From Niabella soli DSM 19437 (GTDB taxonomy: Bacteria > Bacteroidota > Bacteroidia > Chitinophagales > Chitinophagaceae): 64,000 nt of DNA. Below, piece by piece: positions 29,734-64,000 of this stretch. The position numbers and the translations under genes are program-made. How positions within the stretch are numbered: the stretch's first letter is position 1; the number at the start of each line of letters is the position of its first letter. The stretch lies in NCBI RefSeq assembly GCF_000243115.2, contig NZ_CP007035.1:1550001-1614000 (forward strand), written 5' to 3'. The notes under the pieces were generated by a model. That model was not told the DNA's origin. It was given only the letters and a program-made list of their open reading frames with translations, and made no database searches.

Positions 29734-31035
29734 CTATCTGCTGATCCCCTGGTAATAGTTATAAATCTTCACACGCAACAGATATTCGTATTTACCCCCG
29801 ATCAGGTCAATATTTGCCCGGTCCAGATTATTTTTAACTGTCAGGTACTCCACGGAGTTCCAGGTGCCCACGGTAAACCGTGCTTCGGCTGCCTGGTAAG
29901 ACTGCTGTAAAGCGGCAGCCCGTTCCTGCAGTTTTTGATAACGATCGTAAGCCGCATTCATATTTACATAAGCCGTTTGAATATTTTGCTGCAGCGCTGT
30001 TTTCACCTGTGCGTTCAGCAACTGCGCATCTTTGAGGTCCAGCTTTGCCAAACGCACATTATTGCGTAGTTGCAGGTTACTAAAAATGGGTATCGATAAA
30101 GAAAATCCCAGGTTCTTGCCTATGTTATTTTTAAGCTGGTCGCCAAGGCCGCCGTTAAACTGTGTATAGTTGCTCCCCAGGCCATAACCAAACCCCAGTG
30201 AAGGAAGCAGTTTTCCACGGGCCGCTTTCAGCTTATACCCTGCGCCCTTCAACGCATAATCAGCCGCTTTAACCTGTGCAAAACGCTCCAGCGCCGTGCT
30301 ATATGCCGTTGTTACATCTGTTGCGTTTTTTTCAAAGATCTCCGTAGCAGGCATGCGCTCAAAAACCATACTGGTATCATAGGCAACGTTCATCAAAGCA
30401 CATATATTAATTTTCGCCGTTTCCACATCCCGCCGGGCATTGATCATCGTAGCCTCATCCCCTGCATACTGACCCTTCATATCAAAAAGATCCGAGGGCG
30501 CTATCGCTCCTTTCGCATCCATATCCTGCAGCCGTTTTACCTGTTTGGCTGAAAGTGACGCCTGTTCAGTATTCTGAACCAGCATGTCTTCAAAATTCAT
30601 CAATTGCAGATAGGCCAATATCGTATTGAGGGTAATATTATCCTTTTGTTGCTGCCAGCTCATTTTGCTGGCTTCTGCGTTCATAGCAGCTTGGCGCACC
30701 GTGTGCTGCAAGGCCAGCCCCTGGAAGATGGTAACACCGCCCGACACATTATAACTTCCGGAATAAAAACTCCGGTCTACATATCCGTTGGTGGTTTTAT
30801 CAATGCTGCGCCCGAAATACCATCCGTGATTAACGGAGGCGTTCAGATCCGGGAGCATATTCAGCCGGGCCTGCTGCCGGCTTATTTCATCGCGTCCCAA
30901 TTGGTTCTGCGCCATGGTAACCTGGAGATTATTATCCAGCGCCTTATCGATGCACTGCTGCAGGGTATAATGCTTGTCCTGCGACAGCACTGTTTGCGAA
31001 AAAATTATTAAAAAAAATCCAATAAAAAACTTCAT
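29734..31035 (-). CDS. TolC-family outer-membrane efflux protein
   Basis: 433 residues with a signal peptide ending SQTVLSQ. The mature protein is the TolC repeat: long helices (YTLQQCIDKALDNNLQVTMAQNQ), beta segments with NASVNHGWYFGRS, and a second structural repeat around residues 240-430. It would form the trimeric channel-tunnel for type I/MacAB-like export. It is the most downstream gene of the permease/ATPase block, 163 bases after the ATPase gene. No periplasmic adaptor (HlyD/MacA) is next to it. Confidence 0.92.
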   Translation of the reverse strand: MKFFIGFFLIIFSQTVLSQDKHYTLQQCIDKALDNNLQVTMAQNQLGRDEISRQQARLNMLPDLNASVNHGWYFGRSIDKTTNGYVDRSFYSGSYNVSGGVTIFQGLALQHTVRQAAMNAEASKMSWQQQKDNITLNTILAYLQLMNFEDMLVQNTEQASLSAKQVKRLQDMDAKGAIAPSDLFDMKGQYAGDEATMINARRDVETAKINICALMNVAYDTSMVFERMPATEIFEKNATDVTTAYSTALERFAQVKAADYALKGAGYKLKAARGKLLPSLGFGYGLGSNYTQFNGGLGDQLKNNIGKNLGFSLSIPIFSNLQLRNNVRLAKLDLKDAQLLNAQVKTALQQNIQTAYVNMNAAYDRYQKLQERAAALQQSYQAAEARFTVGTWNSVEYLTVKNNLDRANIDLIGGKYEYLLRVKIYNYYQGISR

Positions 31036-31198
31036 AATTTAAATTATAAGTTATCCGTTACAAGCAGCAACCCATCACTTCTCCTTCACCATTCACCTTG
31101 CACTGCCGCTTCATTCCTTATGCTACCTTTATTATTTTACCTTCTCACATTTCCACTCCCGGTAGCTATCGGGACTCACATTTCCAAATTCTTATTCC
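31036..31198. repeat. ATPase-tolC spacer with palindrome
   Basis: 163 bases of TTCACC, TTCACAT and TTCCACT words containing the palindrome CCCGGTAGCTATCGGG (31158-31173). No gene or clear promoter is visible. Confidence 0.5.
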
Positions 31199-31873
31199 TC
31201 ATTCCGCCGGTACTTCCACCTGTCCGTCCAGCAAATGAATGATCCTTGAACCATATTCTGCATTCTTCTCAGAGTGGGTCACCTGGATGATCGTTACCCC
31301 TTCCTGGTTCAGTTGCCGGAACAGTTCCATGATTTCTTCGCCCTGTTTTGAATTCAGATTGCCTGTTGGTTCATCTGCCAGCAATAATTTGGGGCTGCCG
31401 ATCAGGGCACGCGCAATGCCCACCAACTGCTGCTGCCCGCCGGAAAGTTGAGGCGGAAACAGGTCTTTTTTGCCCACAATATTAAAGCGATCCAGCATAT
31501 CCGCCACCATGGCTTTGCGTTCCGATGTTTTCACTCCTTTGTATAGCAACGGCGTTTCAATATTTTCATAAACGGTCAATTCATCGATCAGGTGATAGGC
31601 CTGAAAAACAAAACCAATATACTGTTTGTACAAAGCAGTGCGCTGTTTCTCTTTTAACGACTGTACCGCTTCTCCCATAAAATGATAGGTACCTTCATCA
31701 AAATCATCCAACATACCGACAACATTCAGCAGGGTAGATTTTCCCGATCCCGAGGGGCCCATCACCGACACAAACTCACCTTCATCGATATCCAGGTTAA
31801 TATCCTTCAATAAAAAAGTACGGTTGATCCCTGTGTTCACCCATTTGTAAATTCCTTTTAGCGATAACAACAT
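31199..31873 (-). CDS. ABC transporter ATP-binding protein (LolD/MacB-NBD type)
   Basis: 224 residues from ATG 31873 (MLLSLKGIYKWVNTG); an upstream non-ATG extension is rejected. Walker A GPSGSGKS, Q-loop GFVFQAYHLIDELTVYEN, signature LSGGQQQ followed by LVGIARAL (Leu where RVAIARAL is usual), Walker B LLLADEPTGNL, H-loop THS. This is the stand-alone ATPase type that pairs with LolC/E or FtsX/MacB permeases. It is the only ATPase in the window beside twelve permeases. It has its own sigma-54-type promoter, and the leader repeat precedes its ATG. Confidence 0.95.
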   Translation of the reverse strand: MLLSLKGIYKWVNTGINRTFLLKDINLDIDEGEFVSVMGPSGSGKSTLLNVVGMLDDFDEGTYHFMGEAVQSLKEKQRTALYKQYIGFVFQAYHLIDELTVYENIETPLLYKGVKTSERKAMVADMLDRFNIVGKKDLFPPQLSGGQQQLVGIARALIGSPKLLLADEPTGNLNSKQGEEIMELFRQLNQEGVTIIQVTHSEKNAEYGSRIIHLLDGQVEVPAE

Positions 31874-31955
31874 ATTTTTTGATTTCTGATTTTTTGATTT
31901 TCGAATTGTGGCTTTACAACCAGATGGCCCATATCTGCAACCATAAACAGAATAC

Positions 31956-31971: not shown

Positions 31972-32023
31972 CCAATACAATCAACTAATTATCATAGACT
32001 TAAAAAAACAAACCGCAAAGACC

Positions 32024-32063
32024 TGTACGGTTTTAAAACAAAAAGTGTACGGTTTTGATACAC
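32024..32063. promoter_or_regulatory. Upstream activator-type site of the ATPase promoter
   Basis: TGTACGGTTTT occurs twice (32024-32034, 32046-32056), 22 bases apart, and the second copy is part of a dyad GTGTAC-N7-ATACAC (32045-32063). It sits 54 bases above the -24 GG. An enhancer-binding response regulator is the expected ligand; none is encoded in the window. Confidence 0.5.
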
Positions 32064-32306: not shown

Positions 32307-34694
32307 TCACTCGTTCCGCAATGTCTTCACCGGGTTCGCCCGCGCCGCACGTACGGCCTGCGTTCCAATAGTAAAGAGGGCAATCAGGACTGCCGCTATA
32401 CCCGCGCATACAAACATCCACCATTCGATCCCCGTGTGATAGGCAAAATTTTCTAGCCACCGGTGCATAAAGTACCCCGCAACCGGGGAGGCGATCAGGA
32501 TGGCCAGGAACACCAGCTTTACAAAATCGCCGGATAACAATGCAACGATATTACCAACTGATGCGCCTAATACCTTCCGCACCCCGATCTCTTTTATACG
32601 CTGCGTTGTTAAAAATGCGACCAGGCCAAACAACCCCAGCCCCGCAATAATAGCAGCCAGCGTTGCGAACCCGGATAATATCATTGCCAGGCGTTCTTCT
32701 GCCTTGTATTGCGCATCATAGGCTTCTTCCATAAAATGATATTCAAAAGGCAGCTCCCGTTCATACTTTCGATACAACTGTTTAATCTGGTTCAGCACCA
32801 GCGGCAGGTTAGCACCTGCGTTGATCTTTGCAAACAGGCAGCCGTTACTACCCGTCCATACCGAATTATCCCCCTGCCATACAGCATTGCTGTCGGCATC
32901 CGATAGCACGGCTATAACTAATGGCTGAATAGCGTATTGCAGCGATTTCCAGTTAAAATCCTTTAACACACCGGATATAACAAAAGGATCGATTTTCTGA
33001 TTGAGGGGCGCTTTCCCCAGGTTCAATTGTGCCACCGCTGCTTCATTTAAAAGCACACTTTGTTTCATTTTATAAAACAACGGATCCGCCGGCGGTACTT
33101 TCCACTGCAACCCTAAAGTGGAAATGAAATCCTGATCCACGTTCAGTACCGGCATCAGGATCATTTTTCCCGTTGCCCGTGGCGTAACCCCCGTCATGTC
33201 GTAGCCTCCAAACAGCGGACGTAAGGCGATACTTGTTTTTTGAATACCGCCGATCGCCCGCACTTCCTGCTTAAATGCCCGTGAATGCCGCACCAACTCT
33301 TTTCCAAAGGGAATCGTTACAACATTTTCCCTGTTTATTCCCGTATCTGCCGTTTTTACAAACCGGATCTGTCGCACAATCACAATAGCACAAAGCATAA
33401 AAATAACGGCAACCGCAAATTGGAATATGGTAAAAAATTTGCGCGCTCCGGCGCCGCTGCCTTTTATGAATCGCCCGTACAGGGTGGTTACAGGCTTAAA
33501 TGCCGACAGTACCAATGCCGGATATACCGATGCCAGCAGCGTGATCATCAAAAATAAAACACCAAAGCTAATAAGCAACCGGTGTTGCCGGATAAATGAA
33601 GGGTCGATCTTTATTTTTAAGGTATCAAAAAACCAGGTCTGTAAAGCGGCGCACAGGATATAGCCCATGATGAAAGCAATCCCGATGCACAAAAACGACT
33701 CTGTAAAAAACTGAACGGTAAGATTGCTTCGTCCCGCTCCCATTACTTTCCTTATGCCTACTTCTTTTGCCCGGAGCACTGCCCGTGCGGTGGCGAGGCT
33801 TACATAGTTAATTAACGCCAAAAGCAATATAAACGCTGCTATAAAAGGAAATATTTTAAGGTATTTTACCGTATTCACATCGCTCCCTGATTCCGTCCGG
33901 AAATGTTGCATCGGCATCCCTACAAATCTTCCGTCCGTCTCACCATCTTTTTCCTTTCGTAACTGTACCAGCGCGCGCGCTACTTCCGGAATAGCGCTAT
34001 CATCTTTTCCGGTAAAAAAAGTTATAAAATCAAACTTGTCCTTTTCCGCCAGTTGCCGAAGTTCCGGTATGGCCGACCTACTGAACAAGGAAGCCACAAA
34101 ATCGTACCGGATGCTGGAGTTGGAAGGCGGGTTTGCTGCAACACCGGTAATCGTAAGATTATATGCATTATTGTACCGCAATACCTTGCCGACCACATCC
34201 GTGGTACCGAAATATTTTAATGCCATTGCTTCAGACACTACAACAGACAACGGATTTTGCAATACCTGCCGGCTGTTGCCTTGTAACAATTGAAATGAGA
34301 AAAAGCTAAAAAAATTACTATCTGCAAAAGCAAAAGCCGGTTCGGAAAATTTAAGGGATGGTTGTGCGGGATTTTGAATAATAGCATTTTCCTGCCCTTT
34401 TCTTATCCTTAAAAAAGAGGCTACTGAGGAAGTCCGTTTTGCGGCCATTGGTCCGGCGGAATACCCTAAACGGGGCACAAACAGTGAATCCCCGTTATCG
34501 CCCATCCGGATGCCCATCGAAAACATCCGGTCTGCATTTTTATGAAAAAGGTCAAAACTATTTTCATGCTTTACATACAAAATGATCAGCATAGTGGCGG
34601 CCAGTCCAATAGCGAGCCCGGCAATATTGATCACCGAGAATATTTTGTCTTTCCGGATACTGCGCCAGGCGGTTGTTAAATAATTTTTAAACAT
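32307..34694 (-). CDS. FtsX/MacB-type double permease, array member 1
   Basis: 795 residues. Start MFKNYLTTAWRSIRKDK; TM1 near 20-42, periplasmic domain 45-280, TM2-TM4, a link helix near 425-445, a second periplasmic domain to about 670, then TM6-TM8. Coupling loops EVGIRKVMGA at 311-320 and EIGVRKVLGA at 702-711 would contact ATPase subunits. The segment before the last TM block is FEYHFMEEAYDAQYKAEER. It ends ANPVKTLRNE. Closest permease to the ATPase gene (433-base gap). MacB-like export, lipoprotein transfer or envelope sensing are possible; the substrate is unknown. Confidence 0.93.
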   Translation of the reverse strand: MFKNYLTTAWRSIRKDKIFSVINIAGLAIGLAATMLIILYVKHENSFDLFHKNADRMFSMGIRMGDNGDSLFVPRLGYSAGPMAAKRTSSVASFLRIRKGQENAIIQNPAQPSLKFSEPAFAFADSNFFSFFSFQLLQGNSRQVLQNPLSVVVSEAMALKYFGTTDVVGKVLRYNNAYNLTITGVAANPPSNSSIRYDFVASLFSRSAIPELRQLAEKDKFDFITFFTGKDDSAIPEVARALVQLRKEKDGETDGRFVGMPMQHFRTESGSDVNTVKYLKIFPFIAAFILLLALINYVSLATARAVLRAKEVGIRKVMGAGRSNLTVQFFTESFLCIGIAFIMGYILCAALQTWFFDTLKIKIDPSFIRQHRLLISFGVLFLMITLLASVYPALVLSAFKPVTTLYGRFIKGSGAGARKFFTIFQFAVAVIFMLCAIVIVRQIRFVKTADTGINRENVVTIPFGKELVRHSRAFKQEVRAIGGIQKTSIALRPLFGGYDMTGVTPRATGKMILMPVLNVDQDFISTLGLQWKVPPADPLFYKMKQSVLLNEAAVAQLNLGKAPLNQKIDPFVISGVLKDFNWKSLQYAIQPLVIAVLSDADSNAVWQGDNSVWTGSNGCLFAKINAGANLPLVLNQIKQLYRKYERELPFEYHFMEEAYDAQYKAEERLAMILSGFATLAAIIAGLGLFGLVAFLTTQRIKEIGVRKVLGASVGNIVALLSGDFVKLVFLAILIASPVAGYFMHRWLENFAYHTGIEWWMFVCAGIAAVLIALFTIGTQAVRAARANPVKTLRNE

Positions 34695-35130: not shown

Positions 35131-37521
35131 TCACTCCGTCCGCAATGACTTTACCGGATTGGCCGCAGCAGCCCGGATGCATTGTCCGCTTACCGCAATA
35201 AAAGCGATCAATAAAACCAGGAAAGCCACCCCGGCAAATACCAATGGGTTAAGCGTTATTTTATAATAAAAAGTTCCCAGCCATTTTTGTGCTGCCAGCC
35301 AGGCTACCGGTAGAGCGATCAGCACGGCAATCAGCACCAGGCCTAAGAAGTCTTTACTCAATAAACCAATAATACCCGGTTCTGTTGCACCCAGGACCTT
35401 CCGGACTCCAATCTCTTTTTTTCTTCGTTCCACCGTAAAGGAAGACAATGCAAATAAGCCTAAACAGGAAATAAGAACAGCCAGCGCCGCCATATATTTT
35501 GACAGCACCGAGATCCGTTGTTCATTTTGATACTGCGCCTGGAAATCATCGTTCAAAAAACGATAATCAAATGTATAACCCGGGGCAAAAGAAGCATATA
35601 GTTTTTTTATATGCGCCAGGGTTGCCTGTTCGCTTCCATTCGTAATTCCGACCATAACGGTATTTGCCTCATTGGTTTCAATTTTTAGAAAGGCTGGCTC
35701 TATTTTGTCGTGCAAGGATGCATAATGAAAATCCTTTACAACGCCAACGATCGTTCTGGGCTGCCCCCAAAGCTGTACTATTTTGCCAACAGGGTCGTGA
35801 AGCCCCATTGCTTTGACCGCTGTTTCATTAAAAATAATAGCATTGGAATCTGTTGGGTACGCTTCTGAATAAGCACGACCCATTATCAACTGTAATCCCA
35901 TTGCTTCCATTGCGCCATATCCTATTCCAATATTTGTAAACCTGATGCTGGTGTTGGGGTTTTTACCAGCCCAATCCAAACCGGTTGTATGCCCCTGCCC
36001 CGGCAAAAGGAAAGATTGGACGACAGGGCCCGCATTTTTTACCCCTTTTATTTTTTTTAGTTCTGCCATAAAAGCCTCTTTGTTGTTGCTTAAAGGCCCG
36101 TCTATCGTAAAGTAAAACACCTGGTCTTTATTAAATCCAAGATTCCTATGCTGCACATACCGGATTTGCTGGTACAAAACCTGAACGCCCAGAAGAAAAA
36201 CCGCAGACAGGAAAAACTGAAAAATCACCAATCCCTTACGGGCCATTATTTCACCTGCAGAAAACTGCAATTTGCCTTTAAGAATAGCTACCGGTTTAAA
36301 ACCCGACAGGTACAATGCCGGGTATATGCCCGACAGGAGACCTGTTATCAGAATGATTGTCACGGAACCAACCAAAAAAGGTATGTCCGGACGCAGGGAC
36401 AGTTGTTTGCCTGTCACCTCGTTAAATCCAGGCAGAAATAAGAACATCAGCAATAAAGCAAGCAGGTATGCAAAGAACGACAAGAGCAGCGACTCCGCGA
36501 GGCCTTGCAAAACCAGTGCTTTCCTGGCAGCTCCCAGCGTTTTTTTAACTCCTATTTCTTTTAAGCGCAGGGAAGCTTTCGCAGTCGTCAGATTAATAAA
36601 ATTAATGCAGGCAATTAACAGTATAAAGCCACCAATTATGGAAAACAACCGCACATACTCGATTCGGCCGCCTGTTAAAACACCCTCTTCATAATTATTA
36701 TACAAATAAGCATCCGTAAAAGGCCGCACAAACAGGGTCGTTTTCATATAAGAGAGCTTTGTCTTTAAATAGCCTTCAATTTTTTTATTGAAAGCCTGAA
36801 TATTGCTCCCTTTTTTTAATACAAGATAAGTATAGGGCGCCTGATTATCCCAGCTAATCGTTCTATTAAACAACCGGGGGCTCATAAATAATTTATGTGT
36901 AAAACAGATATCAAATTGTTCGGCTGCTGTGTTGGGAAGATCTTTAAATATTGCCGCAATAGTCACCATACCCTTAAAATTGGACAGGGACCAGTTCAAT
37001 GTTTTCCCAATAACATGCTGAGTGGTACCAAACAGTTTCACTGCCATGGTTTCCGAAACAGCAACCGATTCTTCATTTTTTAGGGCATTGTCCGCGGAGC
37101 CAGCCAGCAAAGGATAGGAAAAAACACGAAAAAAATTACTGTCGGCAAACTGGCCCTTTATTTTGAATACCCGTTGCTGCATTCCTTGTGTTGAAACAGA
37201 AAAATTCCAGGGAATTTGCGATGCAGGCATTACAGCGGTCGCCCGTTCAATTTCCGGCATTTCTTTGCTGATAGTAGCCGCCAGGAGATCAGGAGTGTAT
37301 TCCTGTGTAACGGTTTTGTTAGTGTTATGGACCTGTTCCATAACCTGATAAATACGCCCGGCATCTTTAAAAAACCGGTTCACAGACAATTCATTCTGCA
37401 CCCACAAATAAATCAGCAACGTACTGGCGATCCCTATAGAAAGTCCTGCAAGGTTGATAATGAACGTAGAACGGGAGCGTCTGAGCCCTCTTATAATCAT
37501 AAATAAGTTAAGTCTGTTCAT
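35131..37521 (-). CDS. FtsX/MacB-type double permease, array member 2
   Basis: 796 residues with the same two-half plan, but the start MNRLNLFMIIRGLRRSRS departs from the MxKNYxKTAWR consensus of the others. Coupling loops EIGVKKTLGA at 322-331 and EIGVRKVLGA at 703-712. Pre-TM6 segment FDYRFLNDDFQAQYQNEQR. C-terminus ANPVKSLRTE. It begins 38 bases after the stop of member 3 with no composite spacer or leader repeat, so the two are probably co-translated. Alignment over the first 30 residues supports this ATG. Confidence 0.93.
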   Translation of the reverse strand: MNRLNLFMIIRGLRRSRSTFIINLAGLSIGIASTLLIYLWVQNELSVNRFFKDAGRIYQVMEQVHNTNKTVTQEYTPDLLAATISKEMPEIERATAVMPASQIPWNFSVSTQGMQQRVFKIKGQFADSNFFRVFSYPLLAGSADNALKNEESVAVSETMAVKLFGTTQHVIGKTLNWSLSNFKGMVTIAAIFKDLPNTAAEQFDICFTHKLFMSPRLFNRTISWDNQAPYTYLVLKKGSNIQAFNKKIEGYLKTKLSYMKTTLFVRPFTDAYLYNNYEEGVLTGGRIEYVRLFSIIGGFILLIACINFINLTTAKASLRLKEIGVKKTLGAARKALVLQGLAESLLLSFFAYLLALLLMFLFLPGFNEVTGKQLSLRPDIPFLVGSVTIILITGLLSGIYPALYLSGFKPVAILKGKLQFSAGEIMARKGLVIFQFFLSAVFLLGVQVLYQQIRYVQHRNLGFNKDQVFYFTIDGPLSNNKEAFMAELKKIKGVKNAGPVVQSFLLPGQGHTTGLDWAGKNPNTSIRFTNIGIGYGAMEAMGLQLIMGRAYSEAYPTDSNAIIFNETAVKAMGLHDPVGKIVQLWGQPRTIVGVVKDFHYASLHDKIEPAFLKIETNEANTVMVGITNGSEQATLAHIKKLYASFAPGYTFDYRFLNDDFQAQYQNEQRISVLSKYMAALAVLISCLGLFALSSFTVERRKKEIGVRKVLGATEPGIIGLLSKDFLGLVLIAVLIALPVAWLAAQKWLGTFYYKITLNPLVFAGVAFLVLLIAFIAVSGQCIRAAAANPVKSLRTE

Positions 37522-37559: not shown

Positions 37560-40016
37560 TTACTCTGTTCTGAGACTTTTTACAGGATTTGCTGTTGCTG
37601 CCCTAACCGCTTGATAGCTAACGGTCAGCAGCGCAATTACCACCGCCCCGATCGTCGCTATCAGGAACATCCACCACTCAATATTGATGCGGAACGCATA
37701 ATCCTGCAGCCATTTTTTCATCAGCCACCAGGCAACCGGACTAGCCAACAGCACTGACACTAATACCAATAGCACAAACTGCCGGGATAATAACGTAACA
37801 ATACCCGATACAGAAGCGCCCAACACTTTGCGGATGCCCACTTCCTTTGTTCGCTGAAATGCTGTTAAAGTGGCCAGGCCAAATAACCCCAGGCAACTGA
37901 TAAAAATAGCGATTCCCGTAGCCGTCCGCACCAGTGTTTGGGTGCGTTCTTCATTTTGGTAAAGTTTTTCTATTGTTTCATCATAAAATTTGTACTCAAA
38001 CGGCACGTTTCCGTATATTTTTTTCCAACTTGTGGCTACCGATTGAATCGCATTGTTCCAGGTTGCCGGATCGGGCCGGAGTTTAATATTAAAAGTAGTC
38101 AACTGCTTCTTATCGGTCGTGATCAATACCGGGTCTATTGCCGACTGTAATCCAAACTGGTTAAAATCGCCAACAACCCCTACTATTGGATACATTTTAT
38201 GATTAGCAGGTTGTATTAAAAATTTCCCAAGGGCATCCCGGGGAGATTTGATGCCAAACGCTTTGAGCGTTTGCTGATTGACCACGATCTCATTTGCCGT
38301 ATCAGCGGCATTAAAGTTTCTCCCTGCCAGTAAATGAAACCCGTACAAATGAAGATAATCAGTATCTCCGTACTTCACATTTACCGTATGATGCAGGTCT
38401 TCTCCCCCTTTACCATCGCTATAATCAAGCACCCAACCTACCATGCCGCCCTCCATCGGGCGCTTGCCCAGGGCTACACCAGCGATGGCGGTATTTTTGC
38501 TGAGCTCATTTTTTAATACAAACTGTTTGTCTTTAAACACAGAATCTTTCCATACCCGGTAAGGGACCGTTACCGTTATAACCGCATCTTTATTAAACCC
38601 AAGATCCTTATGCAGCATAAACCGTAATTGCTGGTTCATAATAAGCGCGCCGATAATAAACACTTGTGCCACGAAAAACTGAAAGATGATCAGCCCTTTG
38701 CGTAACGAGATCCGGTTACTGCCCACCACTTTATCAGTCATTCCTTTTAATACGTTTACGGTATTTACGCGGGCCGACAGCCAGGCGGGATACAACCCCG
38801 AAAACAAAGAAACCACCGCCACCAGCACTAACATAAACAATATCATTGCCGGGTAATTCATGTAGTCAAAAATACCTTCGGGCAAAAAATCGGAAAAGAG
38901 TTTCACTGCAAACCAGGCCAGCCCCAAAGAAAGCAGTGCCGCTAACAGGGTAACCACCAACGTTTCTCCCATAAAACGGAGCACAAGCTCCTTAACCCCA
39001 CTTCCCAATGTTTTGCGGATGCCTATTTCCTTCGCCCGCTGCGGCAGCAAGGCGGTACTTAAATTAATATAATTGATGCAGGCCAGCAGTAAAAGAAAGC
39101 CACCAACAATCATCAGGCCGTTTAATACCATTTTATTAGCCGTCCGGGTTTGCGCGCCGAATTTTTCTGCAAAATGTTTTTCTGCAAGTGGTAATGTCTC
39201 GTACCACCGGGAGTAATGATACTTATCAAATGATTCTTTATTATGTTTTAAATTGATCGCATTGAGCTGGGTTAATACCTGTTTGGGATCTTTACCCATT
39301 GATGGTTTAAAAAAAAGCAAGTCATTTGAATTAACCCCATCCCAACTTCCATCTGCAAAATCTTTCTGAACGAGCAAAACGAACTCTGTGTTGTCCTTAC
39401 TAAAGCTGTTGGGATAGTCAGGCGCCGCTACCACTCCGGAGACCCGGCGCAGGATCGTGTCGTTGTACGCGATTGATTTTCCCACGACCTGCTGTGGGCT
39501 TAATAACGGAAAATATTCCCTAGCCCTGGCTTCCGTAAGCACCACTTTATCGGGGGCGTCCAATGCGGTATTTTTATCGCCTGCCAGCCAGGTATAGTCA
39601 AACATTTTAAAATAATCCGGATACGTAGCTACCTGTTCGATATCATCTTCTTTCTCAATCCGTTTGGGGTCTTTGCCCTTACCCTCATTGATTGTTGCAA
39701 ACTGCCGGAACTGGTAAAACATCGGCACCACCAACTTTAAGCCGGCGATATCATTTTTAAGCACATTAACTACCGGTTTTGACACGCCCGCATTTCCTCC
39801 CCCATCAGGATTATCCTCGCTCTTACTTTTGCTTACCACCTGGTAAATATTGGCTGCATCGGGAATTTTTTTATCAAAGCTATATTCATATGCCACCATC
39901 CGGAAAATAATCCACGCGATGCAGATACTTACGCTTAACCCCAGTATATTCAGCACTGTAAACAAGCGGTTGCGCCACAATTGCCGCGAAAGAGCCGTTA
40001 AAAAATTTTTAAGCAT
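37560..40016 (-). CDS. FtsX/MacB-type double permease, array member 3
   Basis: 818 residues, one of the two longest, the extra length being in the periplasmic domains. Start MLKNFLTALSRQLWRNRLF. Coupling loops EIGIRKTLGS (first half) and EVGIRKVLGA at 725-734. Pre-TM6 segment FEYKFYDETIEKLYQNEER. It ends ANPVKSLRTE, identical to member 2, with which it is closely spaced. The ATG is preceded by the heptad leader but the 136-base spacer to member 4 has no R3 hairpin. Confidence 0.93.
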   Translation of the reverse strand: MLKNFLTALSRQLWRNRLFTVLNILGLSVSICIAWIIFRMVAYEYSFDKKIPDAANIYQVVSKSKSEDNPDGGGNAGVSKPVVNVLKNDIAGLKLVVPMFYQFRQFATINEGKGKDPKRIEKEDDIEQVATYPDYFKMFDYTWLAGDKNTALDAPDKVVLTEARAREYFPLLSPQQVVGKSIAYNDTILRRVSGVVAAPDYPNSFSKDNTEFVLLVQKDFADGSWDGVNSNDLLFFKPSMGKDPKQVLTQLNAINLKHNKESFDKYHYSRWYETLPLAEKHFAEKFGAQTRTANKMVLNGLMIVGGFLLLLACINYINLSTALLPQRAKEIGIRKTLGSGVKELVLRFMGETLVVTLLAALLSLGLAWFAVKLFSDFLPEGIFDYMNYPAMILFMLVLVAVVSLFSGLYPAWLSARVNTVNVLKGMTDKVVGSNRISLRKGLIIFQFFVAQVFIIGALIMNQQLRFMLHKDLGFNKDAVITVTVPYRVWKDSVFKDKQFVLKNELSKNTAIAGVALGKRPMEGGMVGWVLDYSDGKGGEDLHHTVNVKYGDTDYLHLYGFHLLAGRNFNAADTANEIVVNQQTLKAFGIKSPRDALGKFLIQPANHKMYPIVGVVGDFNQFGLQSAIDPVLITTDKKQLTTFNIKLRPDPATWNNAIQSVATSWKKIYGNVPFEYKFYDETIEKLYQNEERTQTLVRTATGIAIFISCLGLFGLATLTAFQRTKEVGIRKVLGASVSGIVTLLSRQFVLLVLVSVLLASPVAWWLMKKWLQDYAFRINIEWWMFLIATIGAVVIALLTVSYQAVRAATANPVKSLRTE

Positions 40017-55696: not shown

Positions 55697-55800
55697 AGGA
55701 TCCATTTCTGATTTGAGATTCTTGATTTACGATTCCGCCTGCCGGTTATGAAGGTTCTAGTGTTTGAGGTTTAACGTGTCGCGTTTGACCTTTCACGATT
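55697..55800 (-). repeat. Degenerate leader and R3 fragment before member 9
   Basis: TTTCTGATTTGAGATTCTTGA leader-like words (55707-55730), a short R3 remnant TTCCGCCTGCCGG near 55734-55746, then TTGACCA/TTCACTA words. No complete R3 hairpin. Confidence 0.5.
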
Positions 55801-55888: not shown

Positions 55889-55940
55889 TGTACGCTTTTA
55901 AAACAAAAGACTGTACTAAAAACGTACAGTCTCTTTTTAT
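55889..55940. promoter_or_regulatory. Second copy of the activator-type site, overlapping a hairpin
   Basis: 55889-55908 (TGTACGCTTTTAAAACAAAA) matches 32024-32043 at 19 of 20 bases, at the same 54-base distance from its -24 GG. It continues into the dyad CTGTAC-N7-GTACAG (55911-55929). The larger hairpin AGACTGTAC/GTACAGTCT (55908-55932) is followed by T-rich DNA in both directions and likely also terminates the DUF4097 transcript. Confidence 0.6.
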
Positions 55941-55961
55941 ATAATCTAAGTTATGGTTATG

Positions 55962-57002
55962 CTATAGGGAAACTTCAACGGTGCCCGAGGATGCGGTTGC
56001 GGCCACCTGCAACCGACCGTTTCCAAGTGTTCCGCTTACCCTGTTTTTATCGATACTCCCATTAAAATTATTCAGGGGGCTCACCATTACACGGCTTCCC
56101 CTCAGGTTTAACTGTACATCAGGCGTCCGGGGCAACCGGAGATCGATACTACCAGCTGATGTACTCAATTTTACATAATCTTTTGTGCGTACCATAGCCG
56201 CAGCAATACGGCCGCCGCTGGTATGTGCTTCCAGGTTTCCGCTGATTCCTTTTAGCGTTACACTTCCTCCTGAAGTGCCCGTGATAAAAGTTCCGTTTAT
56301 ATCGGAAGCCGTAATGGATCCGCCACTGGTATGGGCGTTGACATCACCGGTCAGGTCCGAAAGCGCTAAAGATCCTCCTGACGTACTAAGACGGATGGTG
56401 CCCGAAACATGGTCCGCTTGTATGGAGCCGCCGCTGGTGGACAAATCAATATTATCACGCGAATTCGAAAGTTCAATCCCTCCTCCGGAAGTGCTGCCCT
56501 TAATTTTGCCGCCGGCATGGTCAATTTTCAGGCTGCCGCCGCTGGTCCGGAATAATTGATCACCGGTAACATTTGCCAATGCAATACTGCCGCCGCTGGT
56601 GTATAATTCTGAATTGACCGCAGTTCCGGAATACACCACAAATGAGACGGAAAGCGCTGTCCGATCGGACCACCGGTTATTCTTTCTTTTTGCTTTTGCT
56701 ATCAGCCGGTTCCCCTCCACCCGTACATCAATATCATAATATTGCTCCAATATCGCTTTGATCTCAGTTGGTGAGAGTTGTTTTCGTCTATCTGAGTTGG
56801 ACGGCCAAACATACATTTCTACAGTACCTTTTCCCTTACCCCCTTCAACAGTGATGGAGCCCCCGGAGGTTTCTACGTTTATGGTGTGAACCGCACCGGC
56901 ATTAAAAGATTGAGTAAGATAAGGGGATGCTCCCGGCCGGCGCTGGGCATTTGCGAAAATAACAGACAGCGATAAGGCAAGCAGTAAAATTTTTTTTCTC
57001 AT
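55962..57002 (-). CDS. DUF4097-type secreted beta-helix protein with 18-residue repeats
   Basis: 346 residues, signal peptide MRKKILLLALSLSVIFANAQ. After an N-terminal region with one TSGGS (45) come eight exact 18-residue repeats beginning TSGG at 135, 153, 171, 189, 207, 225, 243 and 261, then TSAGS at 281. Period 18 with alternating small and hydrophobic residues fits a parallel beta-helix. DUF4097-like proteins are secreted and uncharacterised; here it stands within the permease array, on the same strand, and may be a periplasmic partner. That is inference from position. Confidence 0.85.
   Translation of the reverse strand: MRKKILLLALSLSVIFANAQRRPGASPYLTQSFNAGAVHTINVETSGGSITVEGGKGKGTVEMYVWPSNSDRRKQLSPTEIKAILEQYYDIDVRVEGNRLIAKAKRKNNRWSDRTALSVSFVVYSGTAVNSELYTSGGSIALANVTGDQLFRTSGGSLKIDHAGGKIKGSTSGGGIELSNSRDNIDLSTSGGSIQADHVSGTIRLSTSGGSLALSDLTGDVNAHTSGGSITASDINGTFITGTSGGSVTLKGISGNLEAHTSGGRIAAAMVRTKDYVKLSTSAGSIDLRLPRTPDVQLNLRGSRVMVSPLNNFNGSIDKNRVSGTLGNGRLQVAATASSGTVEVSL
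56169..56600 (-). repeat. Eight coding 54-base repeats in the DUF4097 gene
   Basis: DNA of residues 135-278; period exactly 54 bases, best seen in the CCGCCGCTGGT or CCTCCTGA-type segments that encode TSGG. Divergence between units rules out a young VNTR. Confidence 0.8.
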
Positions 57003-57337: not shown

Positions 57338-59734
57338 TCACTCGCTCCGTAGCGCTTTCACCGGATTGGCTTTTGCCGCTTTTACGGTTTGCGATATTAT
57401 TGTAAACAATCCCACGCCTAATAAAAACAAAAAACACATCAATATGCTGCCCATACCAAACGGACTGCGCAGCACGAAGTTTTGCAAAAATAATTTCGAC
57501 AATACCCAGCCCACGGGCATGGAAATAAGGCCGGCTATCAACAGCAAGGTTACAAACCCCTTCGACAAAATATGAATAAGCTGTTTCCTGCTGGCGCCGA
57601 TCACTTTGCGCACGCTGATCTCTTTTTGCTTTATTTCCACCGTATATACCACAAGCCCCAACAAGCCTAGCGTAGCTATAGATAGCGCGATAAAACCTAA
57701 AAAGCCCAACAGGGAAACCGTCGCTGTTTGCGAATTACCCGCTTGCAGGTCTTCTTCAAGCCAGGAATCCGTAACCGGCGGACGGGTGGTCAGGCCCCGT
57801 AATGCCTTCGAAACATTCAAGGCAATCTTGGCTTTATCATTTCCTTCCGTCTGGATGTATAAATAAGCATTTGCCGATGATTTGTTCCGTAAGGCCAGCG
57901 GGAATACCGGCTTTCCCATGTTCTCATAGTTAAAATCTTTGAGCACGCCCGTAATTTCCAGTTGCGTGGAATCACTAATCCAAAGCCGCTGCCCGACCGC
58001 GGTTGCCGCGTCTGCAAAACCAAAAGCATGCGCCGCTTGTTCATTTAACAAAATATAACGCTCTTTATCATCGTTATAATTATCCGGAAAATTTTTACCC
58101 GCAATAAATGCAAATCGCATATCCTCAATAAACCGGACACCGGCATAATAATAATTTAAGTTAACGGCATTATTCCGGTCGCTAATCCATAAGGGAGCAT
58201 TCATTCCGTTAAATCGGCCCGAGAATTTTACTGAAGAAGCAGAAACGGAGCGTATGCCGGCAACTGTCGAAAGTTTTTGCCGGGCAACAGCTTCATTCAT
58301 CCCGTTTAACGGCACTACCAGCATATGATCATGCCGGAAACCCGGATCTGCTTTTGAAAGAAAAGAAAACTGCCGGTAGAAGGTAAAAAGAAAAATAATA
58401 AAGATCAGCGACAGGCTGTATTGAAAAACGATGAGCGCTTTTTGTAAGGGCACATTGCCCAATATTCTGGCGGTTGATAATTTTTTTAATACCCGTAAGG
58501 GTGTAAAGGAAGACAGGATCCACGCGGGAGCAACACCGGCTACTATGCCTGCTGCAACTGCATAGCTAACAGACCAAATAAAAAACCAGCTATTGTAGTG
58601 AAAAGAGGTGGGCACCATTTCATAGCTATCGTTAAACGGCCTGTATTTTAATATCAGCGAAAGAATAACCGACGCCAACACCAGCGCAAAAAGAGCAAGC
58701 AATACCGCTTCCAGGATGTATTGCAGAAAAACATGGTATCGCCGGGCCCCGGCAATTTTCCTGACTCCTACTTCCTTTGCCCGCGTGAGCCCTCGGGCAA
58801 TGGTAAGATTGGTGTAATTAAAACAGGCAGCTAGCAATATCAACAATCCCAGCCCGATAGAAAAATACAATTTGCTCCACGACGTACCCTGTGCATTATC
58901 ATTGCCCAGGTAGGTTTTGCCCGGTGTTATTTTATTTAGTGGCTGCAGCCCGAATTTACATACACCGTCCTTATTGCCCCGGTTTAACTCAGCAGCGATA
59001 GCATTTAATTGGGGCTGAAGCGCTTCCATATTTGCATTTCGTTTCAATAATAAATATGTATACGCTGCATTAAATGCATACCAATTCGTCGACTTTTCCG
59101 CCAAAAGCTTATCCTTTTCCATTTGTGTCACGGTGCTGTAGGAAGCATAGGCGGCATAACTAAGGTGCGATTTACCGGGTGGCTCCTCCAAGACCCCCGT
59201 TATCGTATAGGTAACGCCATCGTCCATTTTTATTATTTTACCTATAACATTTGTGGTTGCAAAAAAATTCAACGCTGTGGTTTTGCTGATCACCACGGTA
59301 TTGGGTTTCCGGAGCGCAGTAGCGGGACTGCCTTCTGTAAACGAAAATCCAAAGATGTGGAAAAATTGCGGTTCGGTATATACTCCCGAAAGATAAAGCT
59401 CTTTGCCATTGGCCGTGGCCATGCCGCCCAGGGCTGGATAGACGGTGGTTACCGCTTCGATGATATTACTGTCTTTCAATAATGCATTACTTAAAGGCAA
59501 TGGTGTACTTGCCATAGGCCAATGCTCCCCGTTTTTCTTTGTGTAGTCCGACAGCACCCGGAAGGCTCTCTCAGGAAACGGATGAAACTTATCATAGCTC
59601 AATGCATCCTGTACAATGATCATAATCATCAGCCCCACGGACATGCTCAACCCGAGTCCGAAAATATTAATAAACGTGGTTAGTTTATTGCGAAAAAGGT
59701 TCCGTATCGCTGTTTTCAAATAATTTTTGAACAT
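57338..59734 (-). CDS. FtsX/MacB-type double permease, array member 10
   Basis: 798 residues. Start MFKNYLKTAIRNLFRNKLT. Coupling loops EVGVRKIAGA and EISVRKVIGA (705-714; Ser for Gly). The FEYxFLDD-type segment before the last TM block is missing; that stretch reads TDSWLEEDLQAGNSQTATV. C-terminus ANPVKALRSE. The most divergent member in the second half, perhaps the founder of a distinct subgroup. Confidence 0.92.
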   Translation of the reverse strand: MFKNYLKTAIRNLFRNKLTTFINIFGLGLSMSVGLMIMIIVQDALSYDKFHPFPERAFRVLSDYTKKNGEHWPMASTPLPLSNALLKDSNIIEAVTTVYPALGGMATANGKELYLSGVYTEPQFFHIFGFSFTEGSPATALRKPNTVVISKTTALNFFATTNVIGKIIKMDDGVTYTITGVLEEPPGKSHLSYAAYASYSTVTQMEKDKLLAEKSTNWYAFNAAYTYLLLKRNANMEALQPQLNAIAAELNRGNKDGVCKFGLQPLNKITPGKTYLGNDNAQGTSWSKLYFSIGLGLLILLAACFNYTNLTIARGLTRAKEVGVRKIAGARRYHVFLQYILEAVLLALFALVLASVILSLILKYRPFNDSYEMVPTSFHYNSWFFIWSVSYAVAAGIVAGVAPAWILSSFTPLRVLKKLSTARILGNVPLQKALIVFQYSLSLIFIIFLFTFYRQFSFLSKADPGFRHDHMLVVPLNGMNEAVARQKLSTVAGIRSVSASSVKFSGRFNGMNAPLWISDRNNAVNLNYYYAGVRFIEDMRFAFIAGKNFPDNYNDDKERYILLNEQAAHAFGFADAATAVGQRLWISDSTQLEITGVLKDFNYENMGKPVFPLALRNKSSANAYLYIQTEGNDKAKIALNVSKALRGLTTRPPVTDSWLEEDLQAGNSQTATVSLLGFLGFIALSIATLGLLGLVVYTVEIKQKEISVRKVIGASRKQLIHILSKGFVTLLLIAGLISMPVGWVLSKLFLQNFVLRSPFGMGSILMCFLFLLGVGLFTIISQTVKAAKANPVKALRSE

Positions 59735-60016: not shown

Positions 60017-62392
60017 TCATTCGCTCCGCAATGCTTTCACCGGGTTGGCTATAGCGGCTTTAATAGCCTGAAAACTGACCGTCAGTAATGCAATGCTAAT
60101 TGTAATACCCCCCGCAATAACGAACATCCATCCCGTTATATTAATCCGATAAGCAAAACCCTGAAGCCATCGATCCATAGCCATCCATGCAAGCGGCGAA
60201 GCAATAATAACAGCGATCCCTATTAACCTCAAAAAATCTTTAGTGATGAATTGTATAAGGGTAATAACACCGGCACCCAACACTTTTCGAATGCTGATCT
60301 CCTTTGCTTTTTGTTCCGCAGTAAAAGAGATCAGGCCAAATAACCCCATTACAGAAATAAAAATAGCAATGATGGCAAATCCCAATATCAGTGAAGCCGT
60401 TTGTTTATCGGCTTTATAAAGTTGATCAAAGCTATCATCCAAAAAATGATAATCCAGCGCGGCTCCGGGAAAAAAATGCCGCCATGCATTTTCAACATCC
60501 TGTACGCCCTGCGTTGCCTGACCCGGCGCAACACGCACCATAAAAAAACGAAACCAGGCGGGATTCTGAAATACCACCAGCGGACCCGTTTTATCGTGCA
60601 AACTTTTATATTTAAAATCTTTTACAACACCTATTATTTGCCCTTGCTTTCCTTTCCATGTAAAACGTTTGCCGATATACGGTTGAGTAATATGCAATTC
60701 ATTTATCGCCGTTTCGTTTAAAATAACATTATCTCTATCAGTGGCGCTCTCCGGGCGAAACCATCGCCCAGCCGCCATTTGCAATTTCAGTATTTTCGCA
60801 AAGTCAGCATCCGCAGAAAGCTGTGCAATCTTAGGCTTAAAAGAACTATCACGTCCATCCCAATCTGCCGCACCAGTTGAATAACTTCCAATATTCTCTA
60901 TGGGCTGGTTGGCTATTGTAACACCCTGAATAGCAGGTTTTAATTGCAATTCATTTTTAACGGTCTGAATAGTAGCCTCTTTTGTATTTACATCAACGGT
61001 TAGCGGAAGCATAAAACTAAGTACCTGGGATTTATTATAGCCTAAATTTGTTTGCTGGATGAATCGCATCTGCCTGTAAATAACAATGGTTGCACAGATC
61101 AGCAACATAGAGACAACAAACTGAAAAACCACCAATACTTTTCTAAAAAAACTATCTTTTATGTTCAATGCAGTAAGCCCTCTGAAAACATTCAATGGCT
61201 GGAACGAGGAGAAGGCCAATGCCGGGTAGATGCTATTAAGTACAAACGCCGCCAACAAGGTAAAACCGATAATGCTCCATAACGAAGCCGAAAAAATAGC
61301 GAAGCTAAAATGCTTATCCGTAAGCTTATTAAAAACAGGCAGGCAAAACCGCACCAGTAAAATAGTTATCAAAACAGCCATCCCGCTTACCAGCAATGCT
61401 TCTACTACAAACTGACTGAATAGCTGGGCCCGGCCAGCACCAACAATTTTCCTTACTCCTACTTCTTTAGCCCTGAGACTGGCTTTTGCCGTTGTAAGGT
61501 TTACGTAGTTAATACAAGCAATAAGCAACAACATTATAGCAAGTACCATAAATATATAAACGGTATTTTTATTACCGTGCCGGTAAACAGAGTTTTCGAG
61601 TGCGGTTTCGAAGTGCATTTGTTTTAGCGGCAACAAGGTTATGCTAGTTCCATTGCCGCCTGTTCTTTTTGCAACTATGGCATTGATCTTTTTCTGAAGA
61701 AGATTGACGTCAGCCGTTGGCCGAATTTTGATAAAGGTGATATAATTGGCATTCCCCCAATCCTCATCACTCTTTCTTCTTTTTTCATTCCTTAAAAGAT
61801 TTGCTAAAGGGATAAATGAAGTATACTGGAAACTTGAGTTAGCGGGTGCGTCTTTTACAACACCTTGTACAACAAGATCAGCGCTATCAACATGAATAAT
61901 TTTTCCCGTTGCGTTTGTCGTACCAAAATACTTAATTGCATCCGAAGCCGTAAGAATAATACTGTTGGGATCGTTTGCAAACGCTGCCGTGCTCCCGTCA
62001 AGAAAATCATAATGAAACAAATCAAACCAGCTCCCGTCCACATAGGCGCAGTTTTTATCGTAGACCGGGCTATTTTTCACATTAAATACAGGCATATTGC
62101 CGTCAAATACTCTCGCTGTTTGCGCAAGTTCGGGAACTTCCTTTTTTAAGGTTTCCGCCAACAGTAATGGTGAGGTTTCCCATACCCATCCTTGTTCTTT
62201 AAGATTGGTGGTAACCCTGTAGATATTATTAGAATCCGGATGATAATCATCAAAACTCCATTCGTTATGTACCCAGAAAAAAATAAACACCGCCGCCGTC
62301 ATACCAACTGACAAGCCAATAAGATTAATAGCCCCCGCCACTTTATTTTTCCATAAACTCCGCCAGGCGGTTATAAAATAACTTTTGAGCAT
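60017..62392 (-). CDS. FtsX/MacB-type double permease, array member 11
   Basis: 791 residues. Start MLKSYFITAWRSLWKNKVA. Coupling loops EVGVRKIVGA and EISIRKVLGA (698-707; Ser for Gly as in member 10). Pre-TM6 segment LDYHFLDDSFDQLYKADKQ. C-terminus ANPVKALRSE. Leader repeat upstream. Confidence 0.93.
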   Translation of the reverse strand: MLKSYFITAWRSLWKNKVAGAINLIGLSVGMTAAVFIFFWVHNEWSFDDYHPDSNNIYRVTTNLKEQGWVWETSPLLLAETLKKEVPELAQTARVFDGNMPVFNVKNSPVYDKNCAYVDGSWFDLFHYDFLDGSTAAFANDPNSIILTASDAIKYFGTTNATGKIIHVDSADLVVQGVVKDAPANSSFQYTSFIPLANLLRNEKRRKSDEDWGNANYITFIKIRPTADVNLLQKKINAIVAKRTGGNGTSITLLPLKQMHFETALENSVYRHGNKNTVYIFMVLAIMLLLIACINYVNLTTAKASLRAKEVGVRKIVGAGRAQLFSQFVVEALLVSGMAVLITILLVRFCLPVFNKLTDKHFSFAIFSASLWSIIGFTLLAAFVLNSIYPALAFSSFQPLNVFRGLTALNIKDSFFRKVLVVFQFVVSMLLICATIVIYRQMRFIQQTNLGYNKSQVLSFMLPLTVDVNTKEATIQTVKNELQLKPAIQGVTIANQPIENIGSYSTGAADWDGRDSSFKPKIAQLSADADFAKILKLQMAAGRWFRPESATDRDNVILNETAINELHITQPYIGKRFTWKGKQGQIIGVVKDFKYKSLHDKTGPLVVFQNPAWFRFFMVRVAPGQATQGVQDVENAWRHFFPGAALDYHFLDDSFDQLYKADKQTASLILGFAIIAIFISVMGLFGLISFTAEQKAKEISIRKVLGAGVITLIQFITKDFLRLIGIAVIIASPLAWMAMDRWLQGFAYRINITGWMFVIAGGITISIALLTVSFQAIKAAIANPVKALRSE

Positions 62393-62674
62393 GGGATTAA
62401 TTTATGATTTCTGATTTTTTGATCTCTGATCTTTAACGTTTGACATTTATCGTTTCACGAGAATAACTTTTTCCTATTCACTACTCGTCATTGATTATCC
62501 ATCCCTTCCTCATTCCTTATTTTCCATTTATTATTCCTCATTTCCACCGGCAGGAGCTCCCTCCCCGGCTACGCAGGTGTCGGGATGACGCGTTTTATCA
62601 GTTTGATATGCTGCATTTTTCATTTCCACATTTTCACATCTTCACATTAGCACATTATCAAACTTTCAAATTAT
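62393..62674 (-). repeat. Spacer repeat 10: leader plus R3 hairpin
   Basis: Heptad leader 62400-62455; R3 at 62546-62617 (GGCAGGAGCT, loop CCCTCCCC, GGCTACGCAGG) with TTTATCAGTTTGATATGCTGCAT tail variant; octads to the stop of member 12. Confidence 0.65.
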
Positions 62675-64000
62675 TCACTCGCTCCGCAACGCCTTTACCG
62701 GGTTGGCAATAGCGGCTTTAATGGCCTGAAAACTTATGGTTAACAAGGCTATCAGCAGTGCCCCGGCTCCCGAAACAATAAATATCCACCAGCTTAATGT
62801 TGTTTTGTAATCATATTGTTTCAGCCAGTGTGATAAATAATACCAGGCAAATGGAATGGCAATAAGGCAGGAAATACTTACCAATAAGACAAACTCTTTT
62901 GAGAGCATTTGCCATAAATTCAAAACCGACGCGCCCAATACTTTGCGCACACCGATCTCTTTCTTACGCTGTTCGGCAACAAAAGAAGCAAGCCCAAACA
63001 ATCCGAGACAGGAAATCAATATGGCAAGAACAGTGAAGAAAGTTGCCAGTCGGCCCACACGCTGTTCATCAGCAAATTTCCTGGAATAGTCTTCATCGTT
63101 AAAGGAATAATCAAATGAAGCTGCAGGATTATATTTTTTAAAAACGACTTCAATTTTGGAAAGTGCATCTTTTATGCCAATTCCGGGCTTCATTTTCAGG
63201 TTGATTACGCTCGCTGACCCCGGATCATAGGTAAAAATAGTGGGATTTACCGGTTGATAGGGCGACTCCATGACCATATCTTTTATAATACCAACAACCG
63301 TATATTTCTTATCGTTCCATTTTATGGTTTGGCCAACGATATCCCGTTTCATATTTATTTGTCTAACAGCAGCCTCATTCAATATCATTGCAAGACTGTC
63401 CGTTGAAAAATCTTTCGAAAAATCGCGGCCTTCTTTTAGCTGCCAGCCAATGGTCTTTCCAAAATCGAGCGTTACACCAATAGTGCCAAATGCCGGCAAA
63501 GTGCCGGGATCTTTACCCTCCCATTCAAAGCCGATCTGGTTCGCAAAAACGGCCGTGGTAGGGCTTGATGATTCCGCCATATTTGCAACCGCTCCCGTCG
63601 CCATTAAATCAGTCCGCAATGCGTCATAATGGCCCTGCAGGTCAGGCGTTGTCATATATACCGTTATTAGTCCCGACTTATCATAATTCACCGGGCGGTT
63701 TTGCGCATATTGAATCTGTTTATAGACAATAATGGTCCCTATTATTAATGCAATGGAAAAGGCAAACTGGATCACTACAAGGATTTTGCGGGGAAGGGAG
63801 GCATATTTACCTGCCCGGAATGTCCCTTTCAAGACTTTTATCGGTTCAAACCGGGACAAATACAATGCGGGGTAACTACCGGAAATAAGCCCCGTTATTA
63901 ATGTGAACAAAATAGCCGCCAACCAAAAAGCCCCATTGCTCCAGGGAATGTGAATGCTTTTATCTGCCAGCTTATTAAATACGGAGAGCAATGAAACCGC
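62675..64000 (-). CDS. FtsX/MacB-type double permease, array member 12 (5' part outside window)
   Basis: Visible C-terminal 441 residues, open to the window edge. They cover the end of the first half (LITGLISGSYPALYLSRF), the link helix, the second periplasmic domain with FDYSFNDEDYSRKFADEQR, and the last TM block. The second coupling loop EIGVRKVLGA is followed by the same 94-residue ending as the other members, closing ANPVKALRSE. The apparent ATG-like start at 63991 is an internal TTG and not the real start. Confidence 0.93.
   Translation of the reverse strand, partial: AVSLLSVFNKLADKSIHIPWSNGAFWLAAILFTLITGLISGSYPALYLSRFEPIKVLKGTFRAGKYASLPRKILVVIQFAFSIALIIGTIIVYKQIQYAQNRPVNYDKSGLITVYMTTPDLQGHYDALRTDLMATGAVANMAESSSPTTAVFANQIGFEWEGKDPGTLPAFGTIGVTLDFGKTIGWQLKEGRDFSKDFSTDSLAMILNEAAVRQINMKRDIVGQTIKWNDKKYTVVGIIKDMVMESPYQPVNPTIFTYDPGSASVINLKMKPGIGIKDALSKIEVVFKKYNPAASFDYSFNDEDYSRKFADEQRVGRLATFFTVLAILISCLGLFGLASFVAEQRKKEIGVRKVLGASVLNLWQMLSKEFVLLVSISCLIAIPFAWYYLSHWLKQYDYKTTLSWWIFIVSGAGALLIALLTISFQAIKAAIANPVKALRSE

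Follow-up and report, generated by a model that had tools for sequence, protein, structure and literature searches.

An array of thirteen double permeases between two unlike ATPases in Niabella soli, a candidate exporter with a shared motor

The stretch analyzed here (the window) comprises 64,000 nucleotides of Niabella soli DSM 19437 (G000:C1:1550001-1614000; genome of 4.70 Mb in one contig). Its minus strand carries, at 29734–64000, a TolC gene, one ATP-binding cassette (ABC) ATPase gene, and twelve double permease genes, each about 2.4 kb long; the window edge truncates the twelfth. Beyond the edge, the array was found to close after 13 permeases, with two paralogous ATPases, NBD1 and NBD2 (for nucleotide-binding domain), at its two ends. 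With a probability of roughly two in three, the locus encodes a MacAB-TolC-like (type VII ABC) exporter in which interchangeable permeases are powered in trans by the shared ATPase pair. Among the parts of this proposal, physical sharing of the pair by the permeases is very probable, tripartite export is probable, and substrate choice by the periplasmic domains is slightly less so. By analogy, antimicrobial or envelope-active compounds would be the likeliest substrate class. A bolder version has about even chances: an obligate NBD1-NBD2 heterodimer, one of its ATP sites normal and the other altered, would be the common motor for dozens of permeases, in a high-turnover array and standing alone, under one operator, as an exporter counterpart of the group II energy-coupling factor (ECF) transporters.

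Layout of the locus

The full gene order is histidine kinase (HK) and response regulator (RR), divergent from the array, followed by the membrane fusion protein (MFP, the adaptor), NBD2, P13 to P1, NBD1, and TolC. The region beyond the window edge is given in a second coordinate frame, L001. The features are as follows.

29734–31035, minus: TolC-family outer membrane factor, last gene (Pfam OEP, E 3e-54; TIGR01844, 133.9 bits, below the cut-off of 225.15)
31199–31873, minus: NBD1 ATPase (D-loop NLNS, signature LSGGQQQLVG; type-specific residues)
32024–32062, minus: operator pair (TGTATCAAAACCGTACA, TGTTTTAAAACCGTACA), copies 22 bp apart, upstream of NBD1 (sequence motif)
32307–34694, minus: double permease P1 (Pfam FtsX and MacB_PCD)
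35131–37521, minus: double permease P2 (family match)
37560–40016, minus: double permease P3 (family match)
40153–42612, minus: double permease P4 (family match)
42834–45257, minus: double permease P5 (family match)
45511–47916, minus: double permease P6 (family match)
48143–50521, minus: double permease P7 (family match)
50782–53157, minus: double permease P8, structure predicted (family match; model)
53318–55705, minus: double permease P9 (family match)
55889–55928, no strand: operator pair upstream of P9 (sequence motif)
55962–57002, minus: DUF4097 (Toastrack) protein within the array (Pfam PF13349, E 1e-9)
57338–59734, minus: double permease P10 (family match)
60017–62392, minus: double permease P11 (family match)
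62675–64000, minus: double permease P12, truncated at the edge (entire gene, L001:4675-7065)
L001:7311-9698, beyond the edge: double permease P13
L001:10015-10692, beyond the edge: NBD2, second ATPase
L001:11236-12489, beyond the edge: MFP, HlyD/MacA-like adaptor
L001:12698-12714 and 12827-12843, beyond the edge: operators before MFP
L001:12836-14260, plus: RR, NtrC-type response regulator, divergent from the array
L001:14247-15584, plus: HK, histidine kinase, divergent from the array

The array is no product of chance: whole open frames match their families over the full length, and the layout recurs in other genomes. The original prediction, made from the window, had named twelve paralogous minus-strand permease genes with a TolC gene at the downstream end; both were confirmed, and all twelve are double MacB_PCD/FtsX proteins. 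Its single ABC ATPase, of the LolD/MacB class, is correct within the window, but NBD2 lies past the edge. The array does exceed the window, as it had said, but its size is known. Extending the contig to the right, as had been proposed, gave 13 permeases, two ATPases, one adaptor, and one regulator with its kinase; the ATPase had seemed alone and the adaptor absent because the window edge cut the array.

Gene counts and co-occurrence

The sample consisted of 158 genomes of the phylum, counting the own genome, each with a completeness of 90% or more. An ATPase was assigned to the system type at E ≤ 1e-85 and a double permease at E ≤ 1e-100. Up to eighteen ATPase and up to six permease candidates were scored per genome, so the permease counts are lower bounds. 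The ATPase was detected in 43/158 genomes and the double permease in 42/158, all 42 within the 43. In the sole remaining ATPase genome (G095), two separate half-permeases adjoin the ATPase instead.

The own genome has 14 double permeases and two ATPases of the system type (448 and 457 bits; next-best ATPase, 258 bits). In the 20 genomes that were counted fully, each had 2–35 double permeases and two system-type ATPases, except for G088 (one) and G096 (three). These gene counts exclude one dedicated system-type ATPase per permease in the counted genomes. A dedicated ATPase gene for each permease elsewhere in the genome, which would have spoken against sharing, was looked for there and not found. 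Of 17 Niabella genomes, 13 had both permeases and ATPases and four had neither; among the 13, G005 (72% complete) contributed fragments only, and NBD1 of G013 was a contig-end piece.

Permease family, fold, and conservation

Each permease has about 800 residues. MacB_PCD was matched in 13/13 and FtsX additionally in the three scanned against Pfam, and P1–P12 are 27–49% identical to P13. The relatives of solved structure found by sequence were MacB, a Streptococcus permease, YbbP, LolF, and LolE. The model of P8, built from an 11-row alignment (mean predicted local distance difference test score 80.0, predicted template modelling score 0.74), has eight long helices and two periplasmic domains. 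Its best match in the PDB was E. coli YbbP (9ge6, E 4.9e-21, TM-score 0.55), followed by MacB, a two-gene Streptococcus transporter, and LolCDE.

Conservation was measured as mean column entropy over 120 Niabella permeases, with region borders set by eye on P13 prior to the modelling of P8. The C-terminal tail (1.00 bits) and the two coupling regions (1.68 and 1.56 bits) were the most conserved, the membrane segments and linker ranged from 1.75 to 2.34, and the periplasmic domains reached 2.67 and 2.63. By their expected roles, the surfaces that should contact the ATPase are thus kept, and those that should contact the substrate are variable.

Two unusual permease forms were noted. In G115 (C15:264-7979, L205), two permeases reach about 1220 residues and have a long extra part, with an operator-like site upstream of each. 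In G095 (L184) and G153 (L186), an NBD2-type ATPase adjoins two separate half-permeases (429 + 491 and 431 + 420 residues), an unfused form from which the double permease may have arisen.

Two unlike ATPases

Between NBD1 and NBD2 the identity is about 50%, while the within-type averages are 74% (NBD1, 25 sequences) and 85% (NBD2, 90 sequences). NBD1 is a single clade nested within the NBD2 type (support 1.0). The types differ at 27 specific positions, several of them next to the Q-loop and ahead of the signature, in parts of the protein that are turned toward the permease in ABC transporters. The D-loop Asp was lost in 45/45 NBD1 sequences (N in 23, H in 20, Q in 2), as was the Arg after the signature (L in 37, I in 4, V in 4). 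Both residues were kept in all 122 aligned NBD2-type rows, one of which (G013, L243) is a generic ATPase. A further ATPase (G101, L235) is a normal NBD2 when read in its correct frame. The catalytic Glu and the H-loop His were retained in 137/137 ATPases.

Both types were present in 32 of the 43 ATPase genomes, the NBD2 type alone in 11, and NBD1 alone in none, a count weakened by the fact that a diverged NBD1 past the E 1e-85 threshold could escape it. Genomes with the pair had more permeases (Mann-Whitney p 2e-7, with counts scored to six per genome and relatedness uncorrected). As NBD1 was never found without NBD2 and always lacks the D-loop Asp and the signature Arg, it is likely a heterodimer partner. 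A heterodimer seated under the asymmetric fused permease, with one of its composite ATP sites altered, is somewhat favored on this pattern of residues.

The chief alternative, which is unlikely, is that NBD1 and NBD2 act as separate homodimers on different permease subsets, or that NBD1 is a regulatory ATPase. The 11 genomes with the NBD2 type alone leave room for homodimers, and NBD1 can possess its own operator (G000, G008, and G049). However, for an independent homodimer it would be odd that NBD1 never occurs without NBD2 and has lost both residues in every sequence. Coevolution of the second permease half (B) with NBD1 would predict that permeases of NBD2-only systems differ chiefly in that half. 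On the cytoplasmic surface, the B minus A difference was 0.071, compared with at most 0.046 in control groups. The outcome is mixed, and the evidence for such coevolution weak.

Separately, ATPases resembling NBD2 (60–78% identical) were seen in eight plasmid records from Hymenobacter, Parabacteroides, Phocaeicola, Persicobacter, Pseudoalteromonas, and Spirosoma.

Operator and regulation

A dyad, TGTATCAAAAnCGnACA, marks the adaptor, NBD1, some array permeases, and lone permeases (those outside an array). The gap between regulator and adaptor carries the dyad cTGTATCAAAAnCGnACAg, sometimes as two copies 22 bp apart. Its exact core, TGTATCAAA, had a uniform orientation in 81/81 cases, from 65 of about 111 sequences (with duplicates of a few genomes). 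For a scan of 2.64 Mb of fetched loci, a matrix was built from 37 non-Niabella sites; with the training sites included, it gave 197 sites, of which 143 preceded MFP, 31 preceded permeases, five preceded NBD1, and 18 fell within coding sequence. As a control, 40 of the sequences contained 68 sites, compared with 15 in shuffles.

Whole-genome searches of 20 genomes, allowing at most one mismatch, yielded 36 exact and 29 one-mismatch matches, and the reversed control pattern yielded three. The exact matches stood before MFP (13), NBD1 (3), array permeases (8), lone permeases (11), and a permease of a split array (1); 12 of the 29 one-mismatch matches had a target in the system. In the own genome, operator sites precede MFP, P9, and NBD1, and an exact dyad also lies 117 bp upstream of the gene at 1088815-1091208, the one double permease located outside the array. 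Among the matches listed, 9 of 11 lone Niabella permeases (eight genomes) have the operator, eight exactly and one with a mismatch. The distribution of the dyad thus suggests that, in Niabella and its near relatives, the permeases of the array and the lone ones form one regulon with the motor, and the dyad is quite likely bound by the regulator of the locus.

For COG0577 permeases of Bacteroidia, a 2025 paper (PMC12316311) predicts control by sigma-54. Such control of the present locus, which the NtrC-type regulator had also suggested, is not supported: −24/−12 sites were not in excess, either upstream of MFP (4/113, 5.0 in shuffles) or upstream of permeases (7/462, 8.3 in shuffles). The regulator has GAFTDA in place of GAFTGA in 91/111 sequences (GAFTGA in four; motif unreadable in 16), which suggests that it works without sigma-54.

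The sequence of the kinase points to a short membrane anchor and almost no periplasmic part, and such a kinase may read a transporter. The permeases could then be mainly sensors or mechanotransmitters (FtsEX/BceAB-like) that pass signals to the kinase or envelope enzymes instead of exporting. The protein that P8 matches best in structure, YbbP, is reported to belong to a lipid hydrolase complex (PMC12646458). This explanation is quite improbable. The reading of the kinase anchor is uncertain because hydropathy gave two membrane segments in just 44/92 kinases, and the gene order is that of a tripartite pump: NBD2 follows the MacA-related adaptor immediately in 76 of 80 named adaptor loci (which were found via the adaptor), and TolC often follows NBD1.

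Array turnover and layout in other genomes

The array was compared across relatives, as the original prediction had proposed, and single-member gains and losses were seen. Ten Niabella genomes have the same frame with 6 to 17 permeases, and in the fetched regions all 120 permeases sit between MFP and NBD1. Reciprocal best hits at 50% identity placed these 120 in 48 orthogroups (55 at 60%). No orthogroup occurred in more than seven of the ten genomes, and 19 of the 48 were confined to one genome. Shared members mostly keep their order, single genes being gained or lost and some displaced. Identity to the proteins of the window's locus was 89–99% for NBD2, 82–95% for NBD1, 67–92% for MFP, and 36–79% for TolC. 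The adaptor is 88–98% identical to those of five named Niabella loci and 87–97% identical to most of the genus group. In the fragmented assembly of the near relative G013 (NBD2 99.6% identical), the P7 and P6 orthologues have different neighbors, and the P9 orthologue is located among unrelated genes.

Recent tandem duplication as the main source of members was unsupported, with one close pair (88%, adjacent, in G010) in ten arrays. It is very improbable that the array permeases are mostly decaying or selfish tandem-duplication copies without a shared function, which a 65-bp repeat in most gaps could have promoted through recombination, since all 13 reading frames are intact, the coupling motifs are conserved, and the closest pair within an array exceeds 50% identity in one of ten genomes only (medians about 29–33%).

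In other families, the numbers of permeases bracketed by NBD2 and NBD1 were two (G049), three (G107), four (G119, G150, G096, and G154), seven (G018 and G134), nine (G138), 11 (G081), and 16 (G124, where other genes are inserted). The two ATPases of G142 lie on two contigs, and G101 was left out of the layout comparison due to genes missed in open reading frame calling.

Proposed mechanism

The constant parts would be one MFP, one TolC, one two-component regulator, and the two paralogous ATPases. The kinase and the regulator would switch on motor, adaptor, and permeases together via the TGTATCAAAAnCGnACA dyad. Each permease, a fused pair of FtsX/MacB half-permeases, would recruit the common ATPases through its coupling helices and C-terminal tail, and the NBD1-NBD2 heterodimer would dock under each asymmetric permease. 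MacB works by mechanotransmission. In the proposed system, ATP cycling would move the periplasmic domains, driving the substrate from the periplasm or membrane into MFP-TolC, and the variable periplasmic domains of each permease would select that substrate. The permeases would compete for one ATPase pair, so that expression level would set the substrate profile. Stand-alone permeases with the dyad would use the same motor, because they have the TGTATCAAAAnCGnACA dyad in common with it.

The earlier suggestion that many permeases share one ATPase holds with respect to sharing, which is supported by the counts, by co-occurrence, by the contrast of conserved coupling motifs with variable periplasmic domains, and by an operator found in common at array and lone permeases; the motor itself, however, is indicated to be two distinct paralogues, one at each end of the array.

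Several observations weigh against a shared paired motor. In 11 of the 43 ATPase genomes only the NBD2 type was detected, so NBD1 seems dispensable for such permeases. The half-B effect came mainly from one clade (A 0.262, B 0.391), was weak in two, and was absent in two single-permease genomes. All Niabella genomes searched also contain generic LolD/MacB-class ATPases, which could power some of the permeases. The layout varies: NBD1 and NBD2 are adjacent in G055, G067, and G132, the genes are interleaved in G035, the ATPases of G115 lie in two separate clusters, and several other genomes have no TolC beside NBD1. With regard to the operator, 2 of the 11 listed lone Niabella permeases have no clear site, and 17 of the 29 one-mismatch matches have no known target (of ten examined, three stood before G115 permeases and seven in or beside unrelated genes). 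No operator match was obtained in G065, G107, and G134 of the 20 genomes searched, and many permeases outside Niabella have no site by this pattern. Sharing is deduced from genome comparison.

Comparison with known systems

MacAB-TolC is the closest in parts: both have MacB_PCD/FtsX units, TolC, and an ATPase of the MacB/LolD class, MacB is among the best folds, and the best solved relative of the adaptor is MacA (4dk0, E 2.5e-7). MacB fuses ATPase and permease, whereas here the ATPases are two separate genes, the permease halves are fused, and many permeases seem to share the set. The adaptor and TolC match at the family level, TolC reaching no equivalog cut-off.

The darobactin exporter (DarB/DarD) also combines a double permease with a separate DarD-like ATPase. 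DarD (of the NF038007/NF038008 pair) was the best NCBIfam match of NBD1, and DarB matched the eight permeases scanned over part or the whole of their length. Membership in that family was rejected: NBD1 scored 257.4 bits, NBD2 303.2 bits, and the 8/13 permeases scanned 57–150 bits, with cut-offs of 375 and 700. Unlike that exporter, the present system has many permeases, two ATPases, and no biosynthetic genes seen among its genes.

ADOP proteins (duplicated orphan permeases, TIGR03434) are defined as having no ATPase gene nearby. They are alike in forming large paralogous sets and in a near full-length match to the 8/13 permeases scanned, but ADOP membership was rejected as well, the scores being 223–321 bits against a cut-off of 622.3. 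Here, in contrast, an ATPase stands at either end of the array, and linkage together with the operator indicates a probable energy source. According to PMC11573002, two Dyadobacter genomes have 28 and 33 ADOP copies in their RAST annotation.

E. coli YbbAP, the best fold match of P8, shares fused half-permeases, two periplasmic domains, and a separate ATPase. YbbP has 10 membrane helices, two of them the linkers between the halves that are described in PMC5985334. The P8 model, the sole one made, has 8 long helices and not the two linkers, and the array adds an adaptor and TolC.

In group II ECF importers, the unlike ATPases EcfA1 and EcfA2 are common to many S components, and the likeness lies in one power unit serving many specificity subunits. 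MsmK, FhuC, and MceG are likewise reported as shared ATPases. All of these are importers of other ABC types with no homologous permease, whereas the present system would export.

The kinds of component are already known; the arrangement is a conserved ATPase pair with a fast-changing permease array and lone permeases that appear to share it. To our knowledge, each permease of the type VII ABC systems studied so far is paired with its own ATPase. Among the entries listed by searches of the open-access literature, none described this array or an ATPase shared within this family. A conserved ATPase pair brackets a changing permease set in many genomes of one phylum, and the swap of one gene could alter the substrate range while motor, adaptor, and channel stay. 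The pair is also a concrete candidate for the power source of double permeases that have no ATPase neighbor; if correct, a common heterodimer motor would explain how 'orphan' double permeases of the ADOP kind are energized. In Niabella and near relatives, the operator may serve as a means of finding further members.

Other features of the locus

The start of NBD1 is probably the ATG at 31873 (MLLSLKGIYK) rather than the TTG at 31984. Rfam gave zero matches in window positions 29000–64000. The DUF4097 gene between P10 and P9 had been overlooked in the original prediction; such a gene lies between permeases in 7/10 Niabella arrays.

The 65-bp repeat occupies most gaps of the array (e.g., 42722–42786, 48024–48088, and 50654–50718) and is flanked by low-complexity stretches resembling TTTGAAAATGTG and TCAGAAATCA. 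It had 21 matches in the genome, 13 in array gaps and eight elsewhere, 83–97% identical where long. As a part of the system, it was set aside as dispersed, given the 8/21 matches outside the array and the often short gaps in other Niabella arrays; the repeat search covered the own genome only.

In several Niabella genomes, the kinase has neighboring genes of 868, 221, and 324 residues.

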